64,000 nucleotides of DNA from an uncultured Prevotella sp. (GTDB taxonomy: Bacteria > Bacteroidota > Bacteroidia > Bacteroidales > Bacteroidaceae). Numbering within the stretch: position 1 is the stretch's first letter; each line of letters begins with the position of its first letter. The DNA lies in the NCBI GenBank assembly GCA_945869265.1, contig CAMBOI010000002.1, forward strand, positions 1 through 64,000, read 5' to 3'. Below, in pieces: positions 1 through 40,007 of this stretch. Under the pieces are notes generated by a model. The model was not told the DNA's origin. It ran no database searches and saw only the letters and a program-made list of their open reading frames with translations. The position numbers were made by a program, and so were the translations under genes.

Positions 1-1005
1 ATAGAAAAGTTAAGAGGGATATTATCAGTAGGAAATGACACACCCAAGGAGTCACTACCTATGGTGATATTGGATACAGACATCGCTTCGTCTGCCGATG
101 ACCTTGTCACGATGAGTTGCCTGTATCACATGGCCGACAAGGGGAAGGTGAATTTTGCGGCAATCATGGTAAACCGCAATGGGGATACGAACGCCAAGAT
201 GGCGGACATCATGAACACATACTACAAGCACCCGGAAGTGAAGATAGGAGTGACGCATACTGGTCCTGAGAATCCAATGGTTTGGATTGACTATTGGAAG
301 ATATGCGAGCCGGGGACGTATGCCGGCGAACCAGTGTTTCCGCGTAGTTTGTCGGATGCCGAAATCAGTAGTCTTCCGGATGCTGCCAAGCTATACAGGA
401 AGATACTCGGCAGGAGCGAAGACCATAGTGTGGTGATTCTGTCGATTGGTTTTGCCAACAATCTTGCGCGGCTATTGGAGAGCCAAGCCGATGAGTATTC
501 TCCGCTTGACGGTGTGGAACTGGTGAGACGCAAGGTAAAAGGCATATATCTTCAGGCAGGGCACTATGGAGTGGCAATGGAGCCCGATTTTAATTTTATG
601 AGCGACCCCGAGAATGCCATCAAGTTGATGGACAAATGTCCTGCACCAATGTATTTCTCTCCACAAGAGGCAGGAGACAATTTCGACTATACACCCAGTG
701 TAATGCTTGCCGACCTTAAAGCCGCAGGTATGGCAGACGGTCCGCTATATCATTGCTACAAGCATCACGATTGCGAAACCGGTCAGCGCATGTGGGATAT
801 GATGCCTCTGCTCAGTTGGCTTCATCCCGAATACTTCGACACATTCGGCCCTTATGACATCACACTTGAAGACGACATGATACTCAACCTCAAATTGCCT
901 GAGGCGACATCCAATCACAACCGCTATGTACAATTTCCCAACTTGATAGAGCAAGAGGCCATTATGGGATTGATAAGACGATATTGCTCATTATACGACA
1001 AATAA
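1..1005 (+). CDS. Nucleoside hydrolase-like (IUNH fold) protein, 5'-truncated by the window edge
   Basis: Frame 1 is open from base 1. ILDTDIASSADDLVTMSCL resembles the N-terminal DTDxxxDDxxA motif of inosine/uridine nucleoside hydrolases. ATG at 61 is internal or an alternative start. Confidence 0.7.
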   Translation: MEKLRGILSVGNDTPKESLPMVILDTDIASSADDLVTMSCLYHMADKGKVNFAAIMVNRNGDTNAKMADIMNTYYKHPEVKIGVTHTGPENPMVWIDYWKICEPGTYAGEPVFPRSLSDAEISSLPDAAKLYRKILGRSEDHSVVILSIGFANNLARLLESQADEYSPLDGVELVRRKVKGIYLQAGHYGVAMEPDFNFMSDPENAIKLMDKCPAPMYFSPQEAGDNFDYTPSVMLADLKAAGMADGPLYHCYKHHDCETGQRMWDMMPLLSWLHPEYFDTFGPYDITLEDDMILNLKLPEATSNHNRYVQFPNLIEQEAIMGLIRRYCSLYDK

Positions 1006-1033
1006 TGACGTTATACTTCAAAAAAATTTAAGT

Positions 1034-2308
1034 ATGCAGACAGCAATCAAGCACTATCCACTGACAACAAATCAGAGTGAGATGTTTCAAGAGTGGGAGG
1101 AAGACACGAAGATGACACAGTTTAATATCTGTGGCTACTATCTTATAGAGGGACATCCTCTCATTGCTAAGCGGATGAGAGATGTCTTTAAGATGATTAT
1201 TGAATCACATCCAGTATTCCGTATGCGACTGCTGCATGTGGGCGAACAGGAAGTGGCACCCCTAAAACACTACGACGACCCCACACGCCTCATTAGGCAA
1301 TATCCCGATTATTCGCAGGATATAACCATGACGTTCCAGACAATGAGCGACGAACAGCTAGACAGCCACATAAAGAAGCCGTTAAAGCCCTTCGACCCTT
1401 TCGGCGAACCGCTTTTAAGAGCCGAATTCATCGAGACGCCAAGTCGCCAATACCTGTGCTTTGAGTTCTTCCATCTGCTTGCCGACGGACTCACATATCA
1501 GTCGTTTGTAAATGATATTAAGGCTGCATACGCAGGATTGGACTTAAAACCACAATCCCTTGAGTTCTTCGAATATGCCGAACAACAGTATCAATGGTGG
1601 GACACGGAGGAATATTTCCGTCTCCAGCATTTCTACGAGAGTAAATATGCCGATGGACTGTCATTCACCCGTCTGCCTGAAAGTCATGGAGAAAACTATC
1701 CTTGGGGAGAATTGTTGCAGGAGAGTCATGTCGTGGATAAGGACAGGATTGAGGATTATTGTGAGCGCCATGACTTGTCGGTTGCATCGGTAATGATGGC
1801 TGTGTATGGATGGGCATTGTCGAAGGCAAGCGGAGAATCCACTGTTGCCTTCCTCACGGGGTATCATGGCAGAGGGAAGGGCAATATCGACAAGGCTCTA
1901 TATGGAAATTACATGAAGGAGATAGTTATAAGACTGAATATCACTGACACTATCTCTTTGCAATCCCTTACGAAGCAAATGGAGCGTGAGATGATGGAGG
2001 GAATACGGCATAGTGATTATCCTATCGACCACTACCTCCACACGCATCTGAGTGATGAGGATTATGATTGCACCGAATGTCTGTTTAATAGCTCCTATCT
2101 CGACATGACCACCTCGATGGGCGACATCAAGGTGAGTGCACACATCAAGACCACTGGCATGACATCAATCCCACTCATTCTCACCATTCACCGTTTTGAT
2201 GACAAATACGTTCTTGAGGCGCAAGGCAGTGGAGGGCGTTACAGCCGAAGGCAACTACGTGACTTTCTCCAATTGTATGCCGACATAATTGGCAAGGAGA
2301 TGGTTTAG
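1034..2308 (+). CDS. Stand-alone condensation-domain-like acyltransferase
   Basis: 424 aa; FFHLLADGLTYQ matches a degenerate HHxxxDG motif (FHLLADG); N-terminal YPLTTNQSEMFQEW resembles C-domain starts. No adenylation or carrier domain. Confidence 0.6.
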   Translation: MQTAIKHYPLTTNQSEMFQEWEEDTKMTQFNICGYYLIEGHPLIAKRMRDVFKMIIESHPVFRMRLLHVGEQEVAPLKHYDDPTRLIRQYPDYSQDITMTFQTMSDEQLDSHIKKPLKPFDPFGEPLLRAEFIETPSRQYLCFEFFHLLADGLTYQSFVNDIKAAYAGLDLKPQSLEFFEYAEQQYQWWDTEEYFRLQHFYESKYADGLSFTRLPESHGENYPWGELLQESHVVDKDRIEDYCERHDLSVASVMMAVYGWALSKASGESTVAFLTGYHGRGKGNIDKALYGNYMKEIVIRLNITDTISLQSLTKQMEREMMEGIRHSDYPIDHYLHTHLSDEDYDCTECLFNSSYLDMTTSMGDIKVSAHIKTTGMTSIPLILTIHRFDDKYVLEAQGSGGRYSRRQLRDFLQLYADIIGKEMV

Positions 2309-3534
2309 CTCAGCAGTTCGTGCCACCAATGCATGAATCGGTTGATGAAGCGTTCCATGTCCTCCTCGGTGTACAGGGGTTCGCTATAAAAGAATTCCAT
2401 TTCAAATCGTCCGACACATCCAATAAGCGTTCCTGACAGGAATTGGTAGGCGGAGTCAAATTGTGTCCATTGCGCCCAGACAGTATTTCCATCCACCAAT
2501 ATATTATACATGTTCTCGTTGAAAAGTACGGTAGTGCCGCAATCGTATGCATTATGTTCTTCCCTCAAATCTTGATTGGTATAGAGGGAATGGCGATTGG
2601 CGGCAAACAGTTCACTGCGCATCTGTTCGACCATTTGCGACAAGGATATATCAGGATTAATATCCACGCACACTGTTGTCTCAAACAGGAAATTGCCAAG
2701 GCTTTCCAGCTCATTGCGCGTCCTGCCTCGTTTAGTGGTGGAAAACAATACTTGTCCTCCTCCACTTGACATATTCGTCATGTCAGCCAATGCCATAGCC
2801 CACGCCACACTGAGCACCTCATTCACGGTGATTTGTTTCCTTTGGCATCTTGCCTCGGTGTCCAATCTGTCGATTACCCTGACCTTCTTTATAAAGCGTC
2901 CTTTCTCATAATGCTCCTTGATGGCGAAATCCGTAAGACGCAGACGTTCTACATTACCGCCCACCTTGTCAAGCCACCACTGTCGGTCGGCATTGTATCG
3001 CTCTGAATGGCGGTTGGCTTCCAGTCGTTCCAAGTGACTGAAGAAAGACATATCATTAAACACTGGCGTATAGTCGTCATTGAAAGTGGCGAACATTATG
3101 CGATTGGTAAACTTGCTCAATGACCATCCGTCGAGTAGCAAATTTGCCACAATAGGAGAATAGAACTTACGTGTAGGGGTAACGAGTATAAAGATGCGTA
3201 TCATTGGACCTGCATAATAATCCAGTTCAACACCAGTATGCTCTATGTACTTGTCGCAATCATCATCAGACAAATATCTTACTTCGGCTTCCAATTGCAT
3301 ATTCATGTCGGGGAATAATCGCGGTTCACCTGAGATATTCACTATACGTGAATGGCATACAGGCGACTCTTGCATATAGAGTGTAGCAATTTTTGCCATG
3401 AGATGTTCGTCAGTGTGATATGGTATAGGCACAACGAATGACAAAAGAAGCTCTTCGTCGCAATGGTCGTTTTGCCAGAAATATAGCATCTCCCTTTGCA
3501 AGGGAGTTAACATATAAGTTTTCTCGTTCTCCAT
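2305..3534 (-). CDS. Stand-alone condensation-domain-like protein with degenerate active site
   Basis: MENEKTYMLTPLQREMLYFWQ is a C-domain-like start; VANLLLDGWSLSKF sits at the HHxxxDG position with the histidines missing. ATG at 3534 preferred over the ORF-track start at 3567, which overlaps the upstream gene. Confidence 0.55.
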   Translation of the reverse strand: MENEKTYMLTPLQREMLYFWQNDHCDEELLLSFVVPIPYHTDEHLMAKIATLYMQESPVCHSRIVNISGEPRLFPDMNMQLEAEVRYLSDDDCDKYIEHTGVELDYYAGPMIRIFILVTPTRKFYSPIVANLLLDGWSLSKFTNRIMFATFNDDYTPVFNDMSFFSHLERLEANRHSERYNADRQWWLDKVGGNVERLRLTDFAIKEHYEKGRFIKKVRVIDRLDTEARCQRKQITVNEVLSVAWAMALADMTNMSSGGGQVLFSTTKRGRTRNELESLGNFLFETTVCVDINPDISLSQMVEQMRSELFAANRHSLYTNQDLREEHNAYDCGTTVLFNENMYNILVDGNTVWAQWTQFDSAYQFLSGTLIGCVGRFEMEFFYSEPLYTEEDMERFINRFMHWWHELLS

Positions 3535-3551
3535 AATGTATGTATAAGTTA

Positions 3552-4439
3552 TTATCGGGTCATACAATTAACATGCAATACGCAACATGAGAGTGAGCCA
3601 CCGCCCTTGAGATACTCGTCCATCTTGAAATATACTGGTTGCATGGCATTCGAGACACAGATTTCTTCCATGCGCCTGAGTTTGGCGCGCTCCTGGCGAT
3701 ATTCTTCGCTTCGAGGATTCAAGGAGTCGATATTCGACGCATTGAGAATGAAGTTGCCCACCGCAACACTGTTCGTAAGTCCGCCGTAAGCCTCAAGGCG
3801 ACTGATGGGGATAATCTCAGCCACCCGTTCGATGGCAGCCAGTTCGCTATGCGTAAAACTCTCAACCGACACAATCACCTTTTCCTTGGTCAAGGGAAAG
3901 ACCGCACAGTCGAGATGATAGAGGAAAGGGTCATTCTGTTCCAAGGCAATGACATTCATCCCGAACGACTCCTCCATCCATTCATAGCTTTTCCTTTCGG
4001 AGCGCATGCCATATCCCCCGATATAGATATTGTCACGCAGGTATTTCAGTTCGGCTTCTCCTTCAAAGAGATGAGGGCATTTGATGGTATTATAACCCAA
4101 ACGACAGAAGAAGTCCATGCCCAAAACCTCCTCACCCCTGCGGTTGGCTACTCTGAAATTGGAGCCTATATACGTAGGCTCAGACATGTGGTGAAGCACT
4201 ATGCCATTGTTGGATACGAACACCAAGTCCTGCAATCCGCAGTCACTTGTAGAGGGCAGAAGATACACAAATCCATAGCGTGAGAGGAAAGAATAAACCT
4301 CCCACAGCTCATGTATGGCTTCCGTAAGATTCACGGATATTTCCTGTTCCGAATATGTTTCCATCCATGCGTTATTCCTTATTGATGTGTCGTAACTCAC
4401 GGGGATATTCATCATGTATAATGGATATTGTATTCCCAT
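3552..4439 (-). CDS. Amidinotransferase/dimethylarginine dimethylaminohydrolase-like (GME superfamily) protein
   Basis: DLVFVSNNGIVL, HLFEGEAELKYL, FLYHLDCAVFPL and C-terminal YLKGGGSLSCCVLHVN are typical GME/DDAH signatures including the catalytic His and Cys regions. Confidence 0.75.
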   Translation of the reverse strand: MGIQYPLYMMNIPVSYDTSIRNNAWMETYSEQEISVNLTEAIHELWEVYSFLSRYGFVYLLPSTSDCGLQDLVFVSNNGIVLHHMSEPTYIGSNFRVANRRGEEVLGMDFFCRLGYNTIKCPHLFEGEAELKYLRDNIYIGGYGMRSERKSYEWMEESFGMNVIALEQNDPFLYHLDCAVFPLTKEKVIVSVESFTHSELAAIERVAEIIPISRLEAYGGLTNSVAVGNFILNASNIDSLNPRSEEYRQERAKLRRMEEICVSNAMQPVYFKMDEYLKGGGSLSCCVLHVNCMTR

Positions 4440-4467
4440 AATAAGTTGTTAATGTCTGTATCTGTTA

Positions 4468-6234
4468 TTAATATTTTTTCTTTCTGAAGATTAATGTTGT
4501 AATGTTAAGACCGAACATATACTTATGAGATATATCCTCGCTCATTGCCTTCACCAGTCGGAGACCGATGCCTTGGTTGCTCTCGTCGGTTGTCTTACTA
4601 TTGTTGAAGGCAGTGGGCGAGAAGGGTTTGCCGGCATCCTTCAGTCGCACCTCCATACGGTCGGGGAAGTCGGTTATCAGTACCTCGAAGCATCCGCCGT
4701 TAACCCTGTCTGAACAATGTTTGAGGATATTGCATATCAGTTCCTCGCAGCAGAGAATGGCTCTGTTGGTCTTTTCCTCGCCCATTTCCACCAAGGTGGC
4801 GAATGCCCTCACATCGAGCAAGGCCTGTTTTACCGATTCAATGTCGTAGTTGATGCATAGTTTTGTAGACACCTCATTGGGTAGCAGTGGCAATAACAGT
4901 AAGCGGCTCCTGAGTTTGCTCCTCTTGGATAAGATAAATGTAGTGAGCATCTGTATGGCGGCGAGTATGGCCATGCCTATGGGGAACGCCCACCAAAACC
5001 AGTCCTTGTTGATAGTGGCGGCTGCAAACGGTACGGCGATGAGTGCTATGGCCTGCAGGATGTTGAACACTATTGACAGACGCTTAAATCCTAACAGGGC
5101 GTGAATCCTGGTGTTGACGTATATAATAAAATATGGTATAAGCACAAGGCTTATTATGCTCAGGTATCTATCCTCGCGCTCTACCGATTGGATGTCATAT
5201 TCTCCAAATATATTGAGGAACATGGTGGGGACGAACACCATTGCGCATGTCACGACACCCACCAACACCACCATCAGTGTATTGCCCCTGCCGAGCAGTT
5301 GGCGAAACGACGAATAGTCGCCTTCGCCCAAATACATTCCTCCCGCACTCTCGTAAATCTCGTTGATGCCCTCGTTGATCATTGTACAAAATGCCAATAT
5401 CTGAAGAGCCACTGCGATGACGAATAGCCCTGAGTCGCCATAATACTCCATCACGATATGGTTGATCAACAACGCTGTCACTCCCGACGACATCATGCCA
5501 AGCGTAAGTGGGAGTCCTTCGCTGAGGATATGCCTGAATATGGACAGGAAATTCTTGACCCTCGTAAAACCGAAACTGCACTTGCCGCTCCTGAGATAGG
5601 TAAGCAGAATGCCAAAACCGACGCACTCACTTATTATTGTGGCACAGGCTGCACCCCTTATTCCCATCCCCAAAGAGCCAATAAACAGGAAGTCAAGACC
5701 GGCATTGACGACAAGGGTTACCAACATTGATAAAGTGACACGTTGTGGATTGCCGTCGCTGTTGGCAAACAAGCATAGCACCACCATTGGAGCCTGGACA
5801 ATGAAGGCGCCAAGCATCACACTCACATAATCCCAAGTGAGTGAATAAATGTGAGGAATGTCTCTGTCGGCAAGCAAAGATATGAGATTGTCGAAGAACA
5901 AAGTGCAGATACCCACAAGTGTTAATATGATGGCAATGCTTGATATGAATGCCACCGTGAATTGCCTACTTGACGCAGAGAAGTCCTGCTTGGCAATGTC
6001 TTGTGCCGACAGGAAGCTCGCCCCCAAGGCAAAGAGCGTCATCACTGCATACATAAAACTGTCAAGCGGCATAAACAGGTTGATGGCCGACAAAGCGTCA
6101 GGCCCCAAGTACTGGCTTGCCACTATGCCGTCGGTCATTGTTCTCACTTGCTGCATTATGCTTGTAAGTATCGACACTGCGAGAAAGCTGCGGAATGTCT
6201 TGTCGATTATATAGTCTTTCTTCATAATATGCAA
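4468..6234 (-). CDS. MATE-type transporter with C-terminal histidine kinase-like ATPase domain
   Basis: About 450 aa of polytopic MATE-like sequence followed by CCEELICNILKH (N-box), KDAGKPF (G1-like) and NQGIGLRLVKAM (G2-like). Confidence 0.75.
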   Translation of the reverse strand: MHIMKKDYIIDKTFRSFLAVSILTSIMQQVRTMTDGIVASQYLGPDALSAINLFMPLDSFMYAVMTLFALGASFLSAQDIAKQDFSASSRQFTVAFISSIAIILTLVGICTLFFDNLISLLADRDIPHIYSLTWDYVSVMLGAFIVQAPMVVLCLFANSDGNPQRVTLSMLVTLVVNAGLDFLFIGSLGMGIRGAACATIISECVGFGILLTYLRSGKCSFGFTRVKNFLSIFRHILSEGLPLTLGMMSSGVTALLINHIVMEYYGDSGLFVIAVALQILAFCTMINEGINEIYESAGGMYLGEGDYSSFRQLLGRGNTLMVVLVGVVTCAMVFVPTMFLNIFGEYDIQSVEREDRYLSIISLVLIPYFIIYVNTRIHALLGFKRLSIVFNILQAIALIAVPFAAATINKDWFWWAFPIGMAILAAIQMLTTFILSKRSKLRSRLLLLPLLPNEVSTKLCINYDIESVKQALLDVRAFATLVEMGEEKTNRAILCCEELICNILKHCSDRVNGGCFEVLITDFPDRMEVRLKDAGKPFSPTAFNNSKTTDESNQGIGLRLVKAMSEDISHKYMFGLNITTLIFRKKKY

Positions 6235-6515
6235 TTAATCGATTGCAAAGGTAGCAATAATTATTGAAATGGGAGAAATTTATTCTGATATTTTTTGTGT
6301 CATTCGTTCAAAAACAAGTCAAATAATTAAAAAATATGCCGAACCTACAAAAAAGTGAGTCCAAAATATGCCCGATAAAATCATTGTTTTTCCTTGGAAG
6401 GGCGACATAACATAGCACAGGGCTACGCTTTGTCATGAATCAGTGAGGCCAGTCAAAATGGTCTGTCATAGTCCAAAAATGTAAAAATGCGATTTTGAGG
6501 TACTTCCTCAGAGAG

Positions 6516-35271: not shown

Positions 35272-38200
35272 TTAGAATTTAACGTTTACACCTACCATGT
35301 ATGTGCGTGGCTGTGGATAGTTACCTACGTCAACGCCGGTTACCCAAGACTCAGAGGCGATAGACTTACCGTTTTCAGGATCCATACCCTTGTAGCCTGT
35401 GATGGTGAAGAGGTTCTGTGCTGCCACGTAGAGACGAAGCTGCTGGAATGGGCAATTCTTCCAGATGGTCTTGAAGTCGTAGCCCAAGGTGAGGTTCTGC
35501 AGACGGAAGTAGTCGGCATTCTCGATATAAATGTCAGAGATAGACTGCCAGTTTACACCAGAGTTCATCTTGGCAAACTGAGGATATCTGTTGCTTGTGC
35601 CCTCGCCGTTCCAGTAAGAATAAACTTCAGATGTGAAGTTCTCGTATTCACCGTCGGTGAACTTACGATAAGAACGAGCTACCTGCTGACCGAGTGCTGC
35701 ATAACCAGTCACGTTAATGTCGAAGCCCTTGTAGCTTGCACCGAGGGTGATACCCATTGTCACGTCTGGTGTAGGATTACCGAGGTCGGTCTTGTCGTCG
35801 TCGTTAACAATACCGTCACCATTTACGTCAACGAACTTCAGGTCGCCCACCTTAAGGCTTGAACCCTGGTGAGAGTTGGCGGGATCGCCGTCCTTCAGAG
35901 TAGCTGTGTAAGCAGCGAGATCCTCTGCGTTCTGGATAACGCCGTCGGTCTTGTAGCCCCAGAAGTAACCGATTGGGTGTCCTTCCTCGAAGCGTGCCAT
36001 GTAGCCAGTGCCCTGTGCGAGCAGGTCGCTACCGCCGTTGTTGTATTTCTGTGGAGAATTAACCTCTGTAACCTCGTTCTTGTTGTATGCGATGTTATAA
36101 CCGATGTTGTACTTGAAGTCCTTTCCAATCTGGTCCTGCCAGTTGAGCGCAACCTCGACACCGGTGTTCTCAACAGTACCGGCATTCTTCAACTGAGAAG
36201 AGAAACCTGTTGTAGGTGATACAGGCACTGCCACGAGCAGGTCTTTGGTCTTCTTCTTATACCAGTCGGCATTTAAGCTCAGCTTGCCACCGAAGAAACG
36301 GGCGTCAAGACCGATGTTCAGCTGCTCTGATGTCTCCCAAGTAAGGTCGGCATTGGCAAGACGTGAGAGAGAAGCACCACGTACAGGAGTGTCCTTGGTA
36401 TTGCCGAATGAGTAGTTGCTGTGTGCGTCGTAAGCGAAAGCAGCCTCATACTGGAATGCAGAGATATTCTTGTTACCGTTCTGACCCCAACCGGCGCGCA
36501 GTTTCAAGAAGTCGAGAGTTCCGGCAAGAGATTCCATGAATTTCTCGTTGCTGATAACCCAACCAGCAGAGAATGATGGGAAGTAACCCCAGCGCTTGCC
36601 AGGAGCGAACATTGAAGAACCGTCGGCACGGATGATAGCAGAGAACATATACTTCTCGGCGAAGTCATAGTTCAGACGTCCGAAGTATGACATACCGCGT
36701 GAGTCGGTGCTTGGCAGACCAGATACAGTGGCTGATGTGTTGTTCTTCATCAGTGTCATGTAAGCATGGTCGAAGTCGGAAATGATAGCGCTTGTAGCAG
36801 TTGCGCTGAGTTGGAATCCAAAGTCAGGACGGCTCTCGCCATACTCGGTACCAACGAGCACGTCGAAGTGGTTATCCTTGGCAATGTCGAACTTATAGTT
36901 CAGGGTATTTGTTGTTCCCCAGCTCCAACCTGTACCAATCTGGTTTGTGGCAGACTCGTTGGTGCGCTGGTCACCCTGGTCGTTGAGGTGATATGTACCG
37001 AGGAAGTTACGCCATGTCCATGTGTTCTGCTTGTAGCTCACCTGTCCACGATAGATAAGACCCTTGATAGGCTGGATTTCAACATAGCCCACAACATCGA
37101 GGTTTTGATTTACGCTCTTGTTGTTTGCACTCTGATTCTTTACCAAAGATGCGAGCGGGTTGGTAGCGTAAGATGTATAGTTGAAGAAACCTGAGCTCTT
37201 CAGGTCATCATAACCGAAGAATTCGCCATCATTATTATAAATAGGTATAAGCGGGTTGGCACGGAGCATGGTAGAAAGCTGGTTGGAATACTGGCCGCCA
37301 TCGTCGAGACCCTGCTTCTGGCGGTGCCCATAATAGAGGTTCTCACCCACCTTGATTACGTCCATACCCTTGGAGTTACGCAGGATAACGTGCTCAGAGT
37401 TCAGACGCAGTGTGAAGCGGCGGAAGTCAGACTTTGCATAGTCGCCACCGAATACACCATCCTGATACTGATAGCCAAGACCCATTGAGAACTTCGAGAG
37501 GTCGGAACCACCGGTAATGTTCAGAGAGTGGCTGGTAGTAACGGCGTTCTTGTTGCGCAGTGCCTCAACCCAGTTGGTTCCGGGGTTAGCTCCACTCTGA
37601 TAGTCGGCGAGGAGCTGCTCGTTGCCCTGGAAAAAGTCTGCCCAGTTATAAGGAGTCTCACCAGAGTTGTATTTGGCGAGGTCCATCACCTTCATATATT
37701 CGCCAGCGGTAAGCATCTGCGGCAGGCGATAGATGTTTGACCATCCCATATAACCGTCGTAAGAAACCTGTACCTTACCAGCCTTACCCTGCTTTGTGGT
37801 AACGAGGATAACACCGTTGGCAGCAGCCGAACCGTAGATGGCACAAGAGGCGGCATCCTTCAGCACGTCGATACGCTCGATGTCGGCAGGGTTGATGTTA
37901 TTGATATCACCACCTGATACACCGTCAATAACGTAAAGAGGTGCTGTGTTGCCGTTGGTACCGGCACCACGGATGGTAACCTTAAATCCGTCACCTGGCT
38001 GACCAGATGAGGCCTGAATGTTTACACCAGGAGTCTGGCTCTGCAATGCACCGAGAGCCTGGGTAGTGTTAAGCTTTGCGATGTTCTCGCCCTTCACCTC
38101 AACTGTGGCACCAGTGACGAGCTTCTTCTTCTGAACACCATAACCTACGACTACTACTTCCTCCAATTCTTGGCTGTTGCTTTCGAGCTTAACGTTGTAG

Positions 38201-38517
38201 GTATTAGCATTGCCCACTTTTACTTCCTGCGGCTTTGCGCCCACGAAGGTGATGACGAGCACGTCACCGGGTTTTGCGTTGATAGCGTATTTACCGTCGA
38301 AATCGGTAATCACACCATTGTTGGTACCCTTGATTTTCACGGTAGCTCCGATCACCGGACCCATGTCGTCAGTAACGGTACCCTGCACTTTCTTTGCTTG
38401 CTGAACGGCAGCTACTGGAGATTCCTTCGCGCCTGCGTATGCGTCAGATGGCAAGGCTGCGCCGAGCACCGAGCAAACGCCCATCAGCATGACTGATTTT
38501 TTGAATTTCAAATCCAT
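35272..38517 (-). CDS. SusC/RagA family TonB-linked outer membrane protein
   Basis: N-terminal carboxypeptidase-like domain (GTVTDDMGPVIGATVKIKGTNNGVITDFDGKY), VVVGYGVQKKK, plug and barrel, C-terminal aromatic strand. Confidence 0.97.
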   Translation of the reverse strand: MDLKFKKSVMLMGVCSVLGAALPSDAYAGAKESPVAAVQQAKKVQGTVTDDMGPVIGATVKIKGTNNGVITDFDGKYAINAKPGDVLVITFVGAKPQEVKVGNANTYNVKLESNSQELEEVVVVGYGVQKKKLVTGATVEVKGENIAKLNTTQALGALQSQTPGVNIQASSGQPGDGFKVTIRGAGTNGNTAPLYVIDGVSGGDINNINPADIERIDVLKDAASCAIYGSAAANGVILVTTKQGKAGKVQVSYDGYMGWSNIYRLPQMLTAGEYMKVMDLAKYNSGETPYNWADFFQGNEQLLADYQSGANPGTNWVEALRNKNAVTTSHSLNITGGSDLSKFSMGLGYQYQDGVFGGDYAKSDFRRFTLRLNSEHVILRNSKGMDVIKVGENLYYGHRQKQGLDDGGQYSNQLSTMLRANPLIPIYNNDGEFFGYDDLKSSGFFNYTSYATNPLASLVKNQSANNKSVNQNLDVVGYVEIQPIKGLIYRGQVSYKQNTWTWRNFLGTYHLNDQGDQRTNESATNQIGTGWSWGTTNTLNYKFDIAKDNHFDVLVGTEYGESRPDFGFQLSATATSAIISDFDHAYMTLMKNNTSATVSGLPSTDSRGMSYFGRLNYDFAEKYMFSAIIRADGSSMFAPGKRWGYFPSFSAGWVISNEKFMESLAGTLDFLKLRAGWGQNGNKNISAFQYEAAFAYDAHSNYSFGNTKDTPVRGASLSRLANADLTWETSEQLNIGLDARFFGGKLSLNADWYKKKTKDLLVAVPVSPTTGFSSQLKNAGTVENTGVEVALNWQDQIGKDFKYNIGYNIAYNKNEVTEVNSPQKYNNGGSDLLAQGTGYMARFEEGHPIGYFWGYKTDGVIQNAEDLAAYTATLKDGDPANSHQGSSLKVGDLKFVDVNGDGIVNDDDKTDLGNPTPDVTMGITLGASYKGFDINVTGYAALGQQVARSYRKFTDGEYENFTSEVYSYWNGEGTSNRYPQFAKMNSGVNWQSISDIYIENADYFRLQNLTLGYDFKTIWKNCPFQQLRLYVAAQNLFTITGYKGMDPENGKSIASESWVTGVDVGNYPQPRTYMVGVNVKF

Positions 38518-38575
38518 ACTTAAGTACTTTTCTTTAGATTTTAATTTCTCATTGTTGTTAATTACTAAATTAGTG

Positions 38576-38604
38576 AGGACACATCCACCTGGTGGACACG
38601 TCCT
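38576..38604 (-). promoter_or_regulatory. Hairpin in the susC leader
   Basis: AGGAC-ACA-TCCACC-T-GGTGGA-CAC-GTCCT: two perfectly paired stems with a symmetric internal loop, between the -7 box and susC. Confidence 0.55.
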
Positions 38605-38741
38605 GGAATGATTTTGGTTTCTTTGTTACGTACTGTTTCTTTTTAACATGTTAGTTTAAATTTATTTACGATAAATATTATGTTTCGAATCGGTTTTGGC
38701 CTCATAAAAATGGGCTTTTTTGATTGTTCACTTTTCGGTTG

Positions 38742-38749
38742 CAAAGATA
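38742..38749 (-). promoter_or_regulatory. -7 box TATCTTTG for the susC operon
   Basis: caaagata on plus; implies a leader of about 215 nt. Confidence 0.5.
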
Positions 38750-39136
38750 GGTCTTTTTTCTGAAATAGAATGATACTTTTTTGCTAAGTATTAATACTAT
38801 TTTGTAAAATTGTGTCTTTTTATGCCATTTTTCTATTAATTTGAGAGAAAAACGGGTATTTTTGCTTAATTTGTGTAAATAATACACTTAAAATTAAAGG
38901 TATTCCTAATAAATAGTTAAAACCTGTAATTAGGTCGTTAATTTATATATACTTACTTCTATCAGATGTACAATACAAGTATTTCTATAAATAATTATAT
39001 TAATGTACGCGCGTAAGTGATACTTTATCCTCAATGACAATTAAGTTATGTATATCTTGTTGTCCTGTCGTTGTCTTTTCATAACAACGATTGGAACAGT
39101 TGTTCCATAACTGTTGTCACATCTGTTCCATCACTG

Positions 39137-39177
39137 TTGTCACAATCGTACCATAGCTACTGGTACGATTGTGACAA
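39137..39177. repeat. Perfect inverted repeat, 17-bp arms and 7-nt loop, flanked by further partial copies
   Basis: TTGTCACAATCGTACCA-TAGCTAC-TGGTACGATTGTGACAA; related units span about 39090-39226. Confidence 0.9.
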
Positions 39178-39511
39178 TCGAAGTGGTACGACTGTGACAA
39201 CAACTGTGGTACGACTGTGACAACAGGCATCTGTCTTGTTCATCAAACAGGTTGACTAGTTTTTTTATTATTTGTATTTCTCGTTGACTCTTCTTGTCAT
39301 TGTTCACTCTGAAAGTTGACTATTATATATGAACAAGAATATGGATGATAATTGCTGAAATAACCCTAAAAATTGCGTTTTTATGGCATATTATTAAAGA
39401 AATAGCACCAGTTCTGATTTATCTGTCACTATATAAATATTTATAAACATCTGTGTTTCAGATATATAATATAAATAATGACACTGACAGATAAATTGCA
39501 ACATTTTATCC

Positions 39512-39529
39512 TGCGTGCGCACGCGCGCG
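39512..39529. other. 18-nt perfectly alternating pyrimidine-purine tract
   Basis: TGCGTGCGCACGCGCGCG, containing the palindrome GCGTGCGCACGC, in an AT-rich region. Confidence 0.85.
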
Positions 39530-39569
39530 AGAGTAATTATTAAACGTAGAAAACAAAACTTATCTTGTA

Positions 39570-39638
39570 AAAAACAGCCAAATACCATAATGAAAAACGG
39601 CCAAATACCATAATGAAAAACGGCCAAATATCATAATA
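39570..39638. repeat. Three tandem copies of a 23-bp repeat
   Basis: aaaaacagccaaataccataatg / aaaaacggccaaataccataatg / aaaaacggccaaatatcataata. Confidence 0.95.
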
Positions 39639-39715
39639 TAACTTTTTTTAAACTTTTAATGTACTGAATATCAATAATTATTCGTAATTTTGCTGCCGAA
39701 TAGAATAATGAAGAA

Positions 39716-39898
39716 ATGAAGCAGTATAAAAACAGAGTTATTGACCGCCTTTTGGCGGATAAACTTGAAGCAATGGGAGCAGTACTTATTGAGGGACCGA
39801 AGTGTAGTGCCAATCGGCTGTTTGAAAGACTAATTGCGTTTTATGGCTTATTCTTAATATGTAGAAACAAGTATTCAACAATGTGGCAAGTTGTTTAA
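39716..39898 (+). pseudogene. Remnant of an AAA/DUF4143-type ATPase, truncated at the Walker A region
   Basis: MKQYKNRVIDRLLADKLEAMGAVLIEGPK resembles the N-terminus of AAA_14/DUF4143 ATPases (xGAVLIEGPKWCGKTT); similarity ends at GPK. Confidence 0.6.
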
Positions 39899-39999
39899 TA
39901 ATCAAATACAAATATGTTACAATTATCTTTCAACGTCATTGAACAGTTAATTATTTTTAATAAACTGAGGCTTTTCTTGGTGATAATGAAAATAATGCC

Positions 40000-40007
40000 T
40001 ACATTTG
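40000..40007 (+). promoter_or_regulatory. -7 box TACATTTG upstream of DUF6057-like copy 2
   Basis: TTG at 39977-39979, 20 bp upstream; 15 bp before the ATG. Confidence 0.5.

Follow-up and report, generated by a model that had tools for sequence, protein, structure and literature searches.

Why should an exporter carry a GHKL-type ATPase domain at its end? The question is raised by a gene (P0001) in the window, i.e., the whole stretch of 64,000 nucleotides of an uncultured Prevotella genome that was analysed. MATE exporters are generally regarded as ion-driven and regulated mainly via expression. An earlier note, made from the sequence alone, had read the gene as a MATE-type transporter fused to a GHKL domain. 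This was confirmed, because MatE and HATPase_c_2 were both identified in one open reading frame and both exceeded the curated Pfam cut-offs against which they were judged (MatE: E 1.9e-21, two stretches, 76.9 bits vs a cut-off of 24.9; HATPase_c_2: E 2.9e-12, residues 461-568, 47.1 bits vs 27.4). The features of the gene are as follows:

4468-6225, minus strand: MATE-HATPase_c_2 fusion gene P0001 (open reading frame; orthologs L033-L035)
6246-6278, minus strand: predicted Bacteroidetes-type promoter, TTTC (6278-6275) and TACCTTTG (6253-6246), by pattern match
4954-6174, minus strand: MATE transporter domain, residues 18-424, with 12 predicted transmembrane segments across the whole domain (Pfam MatE, TIGR00797, PDB 5c6o/4lz6, hydropathy)
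4846-4942, minus strand: K/R-rich linker past TM12 (SKRSKLRSR...; positive-inside rule)
4522-4845, minus strand: RsbW/SpoIIAB-like HATPase_c_2 domain, residues 461-568 (Pfam, profile vs PDB, fold search)
4729-4743, minus strand: N box, E495 and N499 (E-x-x-x-N; E in 51/54, N in 46/54 relatives)
4630-4638, minus strand: G1 box, D530-x-G532 (D in 50/54, G in 53/54 relatives)
4564-4572, minus strand: G2 box, G552-I-G554 (G554 in 44/54 relatives)

Architecture of the fusion protein

The fusion is encoded by a single unbroken frame of 585 aa on the minus strand, starting from the ATG at 6225. The span 4468-6234 given previously implied a start at TTG 6234; the reading frame itself is real, but the ATG is favoured on account of its distance, ~20 bases, from the end of a perfect upstream Bacteroidetes -7 box (TACCTTTG, 6253-6246). 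A frameshift as the origin of the fusion was rejected, since continuous orthologs with 86-96% identity are present in three other assemblies (Prevotella sp. P2-180 and two Prevotella genomes assembled from metagenomes). The area was also scanned for Rfam families and tRNAs, with no match.

The MATE half shows 12 hydrophobic segments in the hydropathy analysis and matches the MATE structures 5c6o and 4lz6 in the PDB; TIGR00797 matched residues 19-401 with a score of 114, below its own cut-off of 147. By sequence it shares the twelve-helix MATE fold of the DinF/NorM-type exporters (PDB 5c6o, 4lz6, 3vvn), the structures of which, unlike P0001, have no C-terminal kinase domain. The HATPase domain comes after TM12, separated by a short linker, and should face the cytoplasm because this linker is K/R-rich (positive-inside rule). 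Since a potential ATPase is joined to a transporter, ATP hydrolysis by the domain might be supposed to power transport. We find this hardly credible, because the full 12-helix MATE architecture is retained and the domain is missing from many close relatives; moreover, GHKL switch kinases have a slow turnover and phosphorylate proteins, which also counts against an ATP-driven MATE.

Identity and conservation of the kinase-like domain

In a search of the PDB with a domain profile built from 12 fused relatives, RsbW of B. subtilis (6m36) was the top match (E 1e-4), and SpoIIAB and DesK-type kinases were weaker matches. RsbW and SpoIIAB were also the best Foldseek matches of the isolated domain; since none of these passes E 0.001 and the model has a pLDDT of 50, we count this low-confidence result only as agreement. 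The full-length AlphaFold2 model (four sequences) had a pLDDT of 33 and was too poor for use. Taken together, the searches support the assignment of the GHKL domain to the RsbW/SpoIIAB type, as previously proposed. A two-component histidine kinase was considered and rejected: the Pfam matches of P0001 include neither HisKA nor HisKA_3 (the dimerisation and phospho-acceptor domain), which bears out the earlier remark that no dimerisation His-box is visible, and the HATPase domain follows right after TM12 via the short linker.

The motifs quoted for the ATP site are all in place, namely EELICNILKH (E495, N499), KDAGKPF (D530, G532) and NQGIGLRLVKAM (G552, G554), and the match goes beyond chance. 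Five residues (E495, N499, D530, G532 and G554) were checked in 54 non-redundant fused proteins. All five are intact in P0001 and 42 other fusions (43/54), and they are conserved among domains that are just 23-32% identical to that of P0001. The ATP site is degenerate in the remaining 11 (L036, L037, L040, L041, L043, L044, L047, L049, L150 and two in L154), and therefore some fusions cannot be active kinases. Retention of the ATP-binding residues in homologs, on which the earlier reading depended, holds for the 43 but fails for these 11 distant proteins. In a comparison of the window with L034, dN/dS was ~0.27 in the HATPase domain vs 0.19 in the MATE part, and both parts are therefore under purifying selection.

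The degenerate members bear on another explanation, in which the domain serves as a structural tail or is a vestige, its kinase action lost. It would fit the 11 proteins with degenerate N or G boxes in which the C-terminal Y-x-Y....N strand nevertheless persists, and the two fusion genomes without a full PP2C partner (G101 and G200, see below). Against it stand the five residues retained in P0001 and 42 others despite the low identity of their domains, and the dN/dS of the domain, so that we consider a mere tail quite improbable.

Distribution of the fusion

The fusion was found in 64 of 398 Prevotella genomes (mostly ~25-33% identity) and in 14 of 201 genomes of the family. Among 324 genomes of the order, fused-length proteins were present in three from other families: that of G1244 keeps its boxes intact and is encoded next to an adenylation-domain gene, and those of G1010 and G1216 have no recognisable boxes. 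In 396 genomes of the phylum, searched at E 1e-30, no match outside the own genome has an open frame extending across the HATPase domain, and in plasmids and phages, the only sample from outside the Bacteroidota, no match covers 80% of the query. The taxonomic spread, named in the earlier note as a check, thus extends over Prevotella, other genera of the Bacteroidaceae and, rarely, other families of the Bacteroidales. The fusion is single-copy in its own genome (G000), where the two other matches are an ordinary MATE and a stand-alone RsbW.

In the tree of the MATE domain, most fusions cluster; MATEs that are NRPS-associated but unfused branch next to these or in their midst, and some branches are long. 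The unfused MATEs among the fusions may reflect losses of the domain or repeated fusion, both of which are possible.

Partner genes of the switch

RsbW-type kinases act with a small STAS protein and a PP2C phosphatase, and a search for such partners near the gene had been suggested. The window was scanned for them and none was found; no STAS, PP2C or NRPS gene adjoins the fusion there. Elsewhere in the genome, on contig C13 and therefore on a different contig from the fusion, lies one PP2C(dCache-HAMP)-RsbW-STAS trio, which includes its own RsbW (the stand-alone one mentioned above), so that all three switch parts are encoded. Orthologous trios are present in G933 and G606. In G670, the fusion of which is 96% identical, no ortholog of the trio was found, and its PP2C is unlinked with neither HATPase nor STAS beside it. 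The window thus holds no STAS or PP2C partner, and in several relatives such partners adjoin the fusion.

In the trio locus (L051, G000:C13:24297-33160), an NMT1-like binding protein adjoins the trio; judging by the appearance of their sequences, an HlyD-like gene and two C39-peptidase/ABC exporters adjoin it as well. Possibly the same switch also governs this second locus for export.

A SpoIIE-type PP2C was identified in 260 of the 398 Prevotella genomes sampled. It is present in all 64 fusion-bearing genomes vs 196 of the 334 others (59%; Fisher 1.4e-13, shared ancestry uncorrected), and in the family sample in 12 of 14 fusion genomes vs 59 of 187 others (shared ancestry likewise uncorrected). 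The two exceptions are G101 and G200, which have no full PP2C partner and carry degenerate HATPase domains in which ATP-site residues are lost. The genes are also frequently linked. A SpoIIE gene lies within 15 kb at 15 of 30 places of the MATE subfamily, fused and unfused, vs 0 of 101 other MATE places (8e-12), and at 5 of 15 places vs 0 of 101 (1.9e-5) for the fused members alone, the 101 being the best-scoring among the matches listed. Within flanks of 1.5 kb, switch genes showed a weak enrichment (7/39 vs 0/33, p 0.013).

A STAS gene lies immediately upstream of the fusion, overlapping it or a few bases off, at three loci (L042, L048 and L145), and in the gene array of the fusion at four others (L037, L132, L139 and L149). 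The loop with the phosphorylatable Ser is retained in all 8 STAS proteins examined. The array of L149 comprises a PP2C, a STAS gene, an acyl-ligase-like gene, the fusion and an NRPS. Here and in L042 the PP2C lacks a kinase domain, which leaves the domain on the MATE as the sole HATPase seen in the locus. A complementary layout occurs in L050, where an unfused MATE lies beside a PP2C-HATPase protein and a STAS gene; a PP2C-HATPase protein coexists with the fusion in L037 and L139. Most PP2C partners examined bear periplasmic Cache sensors.

The closest solved relatives of the domain, RsbW and SpoIIAB, are anti-sigma factors, and the fusion might accordingly be a membrane-held anti-sigma factor that sequesters a sigma factor until STAS frees it. 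However, no sigma-factor gene (Sigma70_r2) was found on the fusion and trio contigs of G000 or on the linked-locus contigs of G881 and G054. Sigma-factor matches elsewhere are in open frames mostly of ~290-320 aa (housekeeping-sized) or ~160-240 aa (ECF-sized), a few having other sizes, a division by length in which the sigma-B/F subtype is not separated. On this evidence we judge an anti-sigma role to be very doubtful.

Local operon and biosynthetic neighbours

The fusion is followed in its operon by P0002 and then P0003; P0004 is convergent:

3552-4439, minus strand: DDAH/arginine-dihydrolase-like hydrolase P0002, next operon gene (Pfam DDAH_eukar 1.1e-7; NCBIfam DDAH 4e-28, below the model cut-off)
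2305-3567, minus strand: stand-alone condensation-domain protein P0003, without the catalytic His of HHxxxDG (VANLLLDG; Pfam Condensation 5.8e-20)
1034-2308, plus strand: second stand-alone condensation-domain protein P0004, convergent, catalytic His kept (FHLLADG; Pfam Condensation 5.9e-29)

Positions 1-6371 of the window are syntenic with G933 and G606, with a breakpoint near 6334-6371. In G670 the cluster is partly lost, P0002 and P0004 being mostly deleted, which suggests cluster decay. Further along the window, positions 38001-40000 are AT-rich (35.7% GC), vs ~44-52% GC in the rest.

Some 17 fused loci have an NRPS beside the fusion, and several further ones have stand-alone condensation proteins. 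The neighbouring NRPSs of the relatives are of the form C-A-T-C-A-T-reductase, and in several distant relatives both a PP2C and such an NRPS adjoin the fusion. Since a stand-alone condensation protein also occurs at the distant fused loci L126, L135, L136, L153 and L038, the link between fusion and condensation protein is not unique to the window. These five loci also share an HlyD-like gene and DUF6056-type proteins, so that an uncharacterised export cassette recurs among them. At five other loci (L119, L123, L128, L129 and L134; by Pfam in L129 only) a TonB-dependent-receptor-like gene adjoins the fusion, and it sits between NRPS and fusion where an NRPS is visible.

A proposed partner switch on an exporter

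In RsbW and SpoIIAB, the ATP-bound kinase phosphorylates and releases the STAS protein, and the ADP-bound kinase binds unphosphorylated STAS. We propose that P0001 is an ion-coupled MATE exporter that bears a serine-protein-kinase domain of this type at its cytoplasmic C-terminus, and that this domain would be the kinase half of a partner switch. Its substrate would be a small STAS protein (RsbV/SpoIIAA-like), which it would bind and phosphorylate at the serine conserved in the Y(I/M)(S/A)S(S/A)GLR loop; removal of the phosphate would fall to a PP2C (SpoIIE/RsbU-like) that typically has a Cache sensor in the periplasm. Whether STAS is bound or released would then govern export of a small product, acylated or peptidic, of condensation-domain enzymes, the putative makers being the C-A-T-C-A-T-reductase NRPSs in the relatives and the stand-alone condensation proteins with the DDAH-like hydrolase in the window. 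With the domain fused to the MATE, control of export by STAS occupancy would be the simplest consequence. Computation shows the fusion and its intact ATP site, its spread, its co-occurrence and frequent linkage with genes for a PP2C, a STAS protein or an NRPS, and a lack of sigma-factor genes on the contigs tested; that STAS is phosphorylated and bound by the domain on the MATE, which way control runs and what is exported are what we infer. Counting against the proposal are the trio's place on another contig with an RsbW of its own, the lack of that trio in G670, the lost ATP-site residues of 11 fusions and the weak enrichment within 1.5 kb. We regard it as fairly probable that a membrane-tethered partner switch exists here in which STAS phosphorylation controls a natural-product exporter. 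The fuller version, in which the kinase half is built into an exporter of NRPS or condensation products and a Cache-sensing phosphatase switches secretion post-translationally, free of sigma factors, in gut Bacteroidales, is a tentative proposal that falls just short of probable.

The earlier note had allowed for regulation of the transporter as well as for signalling through it; we infer the former. The main rival to export control by STAS takes the latter course: the MATE would be a sensor in which substrate binding or flux alters the kinase, and STAS, phosphorylated by it, would report the export status to some other target, e.g., a second RsbW, biosynthetic enzymes or gene expression. The second RsbW-type kinase in several fusion genomes, between which and the first STAS could relay, would suit such a sensor, and so would the NRPS in the fusion's own array at several loci. 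However, a second sensor is not required where most PP2C partners examined already have periplasmic Cache sensors, and there is no separate output gene with consistent linkage; a sensing MATE therefore appears unlikely to us.

If control of export by STAS is correct, an exporter-borne conserved kinase domain would provide a post-translational gate on metabolite secretion by gut bacteria, and the common PP2C/RsbW/STAS modules of Prevotella would gain a concrete output, none being found for them in the literature searched.

Relation to known systems

The switch proteins RsbU-RsbV-RsbW and SpoIIE-SpoIIAA-SpoIIAB of Bacillus resemble the Prevotella components in the kinase family, in a STAS protein with a phosphorylatable Ser and in the PP2C. 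What sets the Prevotella arrangement apart is the covalent attachment of its kinase to a MATE exporter and the lack of a linked sigma factor. SiaABCD of Pseudomonas (SiaB-SiaC, PDB 6kko) is likewise a PP2C/kinase/STAS-like switch without sigma-factor output, although its kinase is a separate protein and its output a diguanylate cyclase.

Partner-switch proteins of Bordetella (BtrU-BtrV-BtrW) control type III secretion (PMC8256260), and thus act on secretion rather than, or besides, a sigma factor; in contrast to the fusion, BtrW is separate and soluble, and the target is an injectisome of many proteins in place of a MATE carrier. In SulP/SLC26-STAS transporters and in MlaB on the MlaFE ABC transporter, STAS is thought to regulate the transporter (PMC8256260, PMC7367683). 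There, too, a component of a partner switch sits on a membrane transporter, but SulP/SLC26 and MlaFE bear or bind the STAS half, whereas the Prevotella MATE bears the kinase half and its STAS is separate. The parts are of known kinds; their arrangement, a kinase half on a MATE with a link to NRPS-type genes, was not found described in the literature searched.

NRPS clusters that end in a reductase are also known from the gut, as are condensation enzymes that stand alone, e.g., OaaC (PMC13142362). These resemble the C-A-T-C-A-T-reductase NRPSs and free-standing condensation proteins that adjoin the fusion, and differ in that no A or carrier gene adjoins the condensation proteins of the window. 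The motifs of the latter end in DG, where those of fatty-acid-amide enzymes commonly end in DS or DA (PMC13142362).
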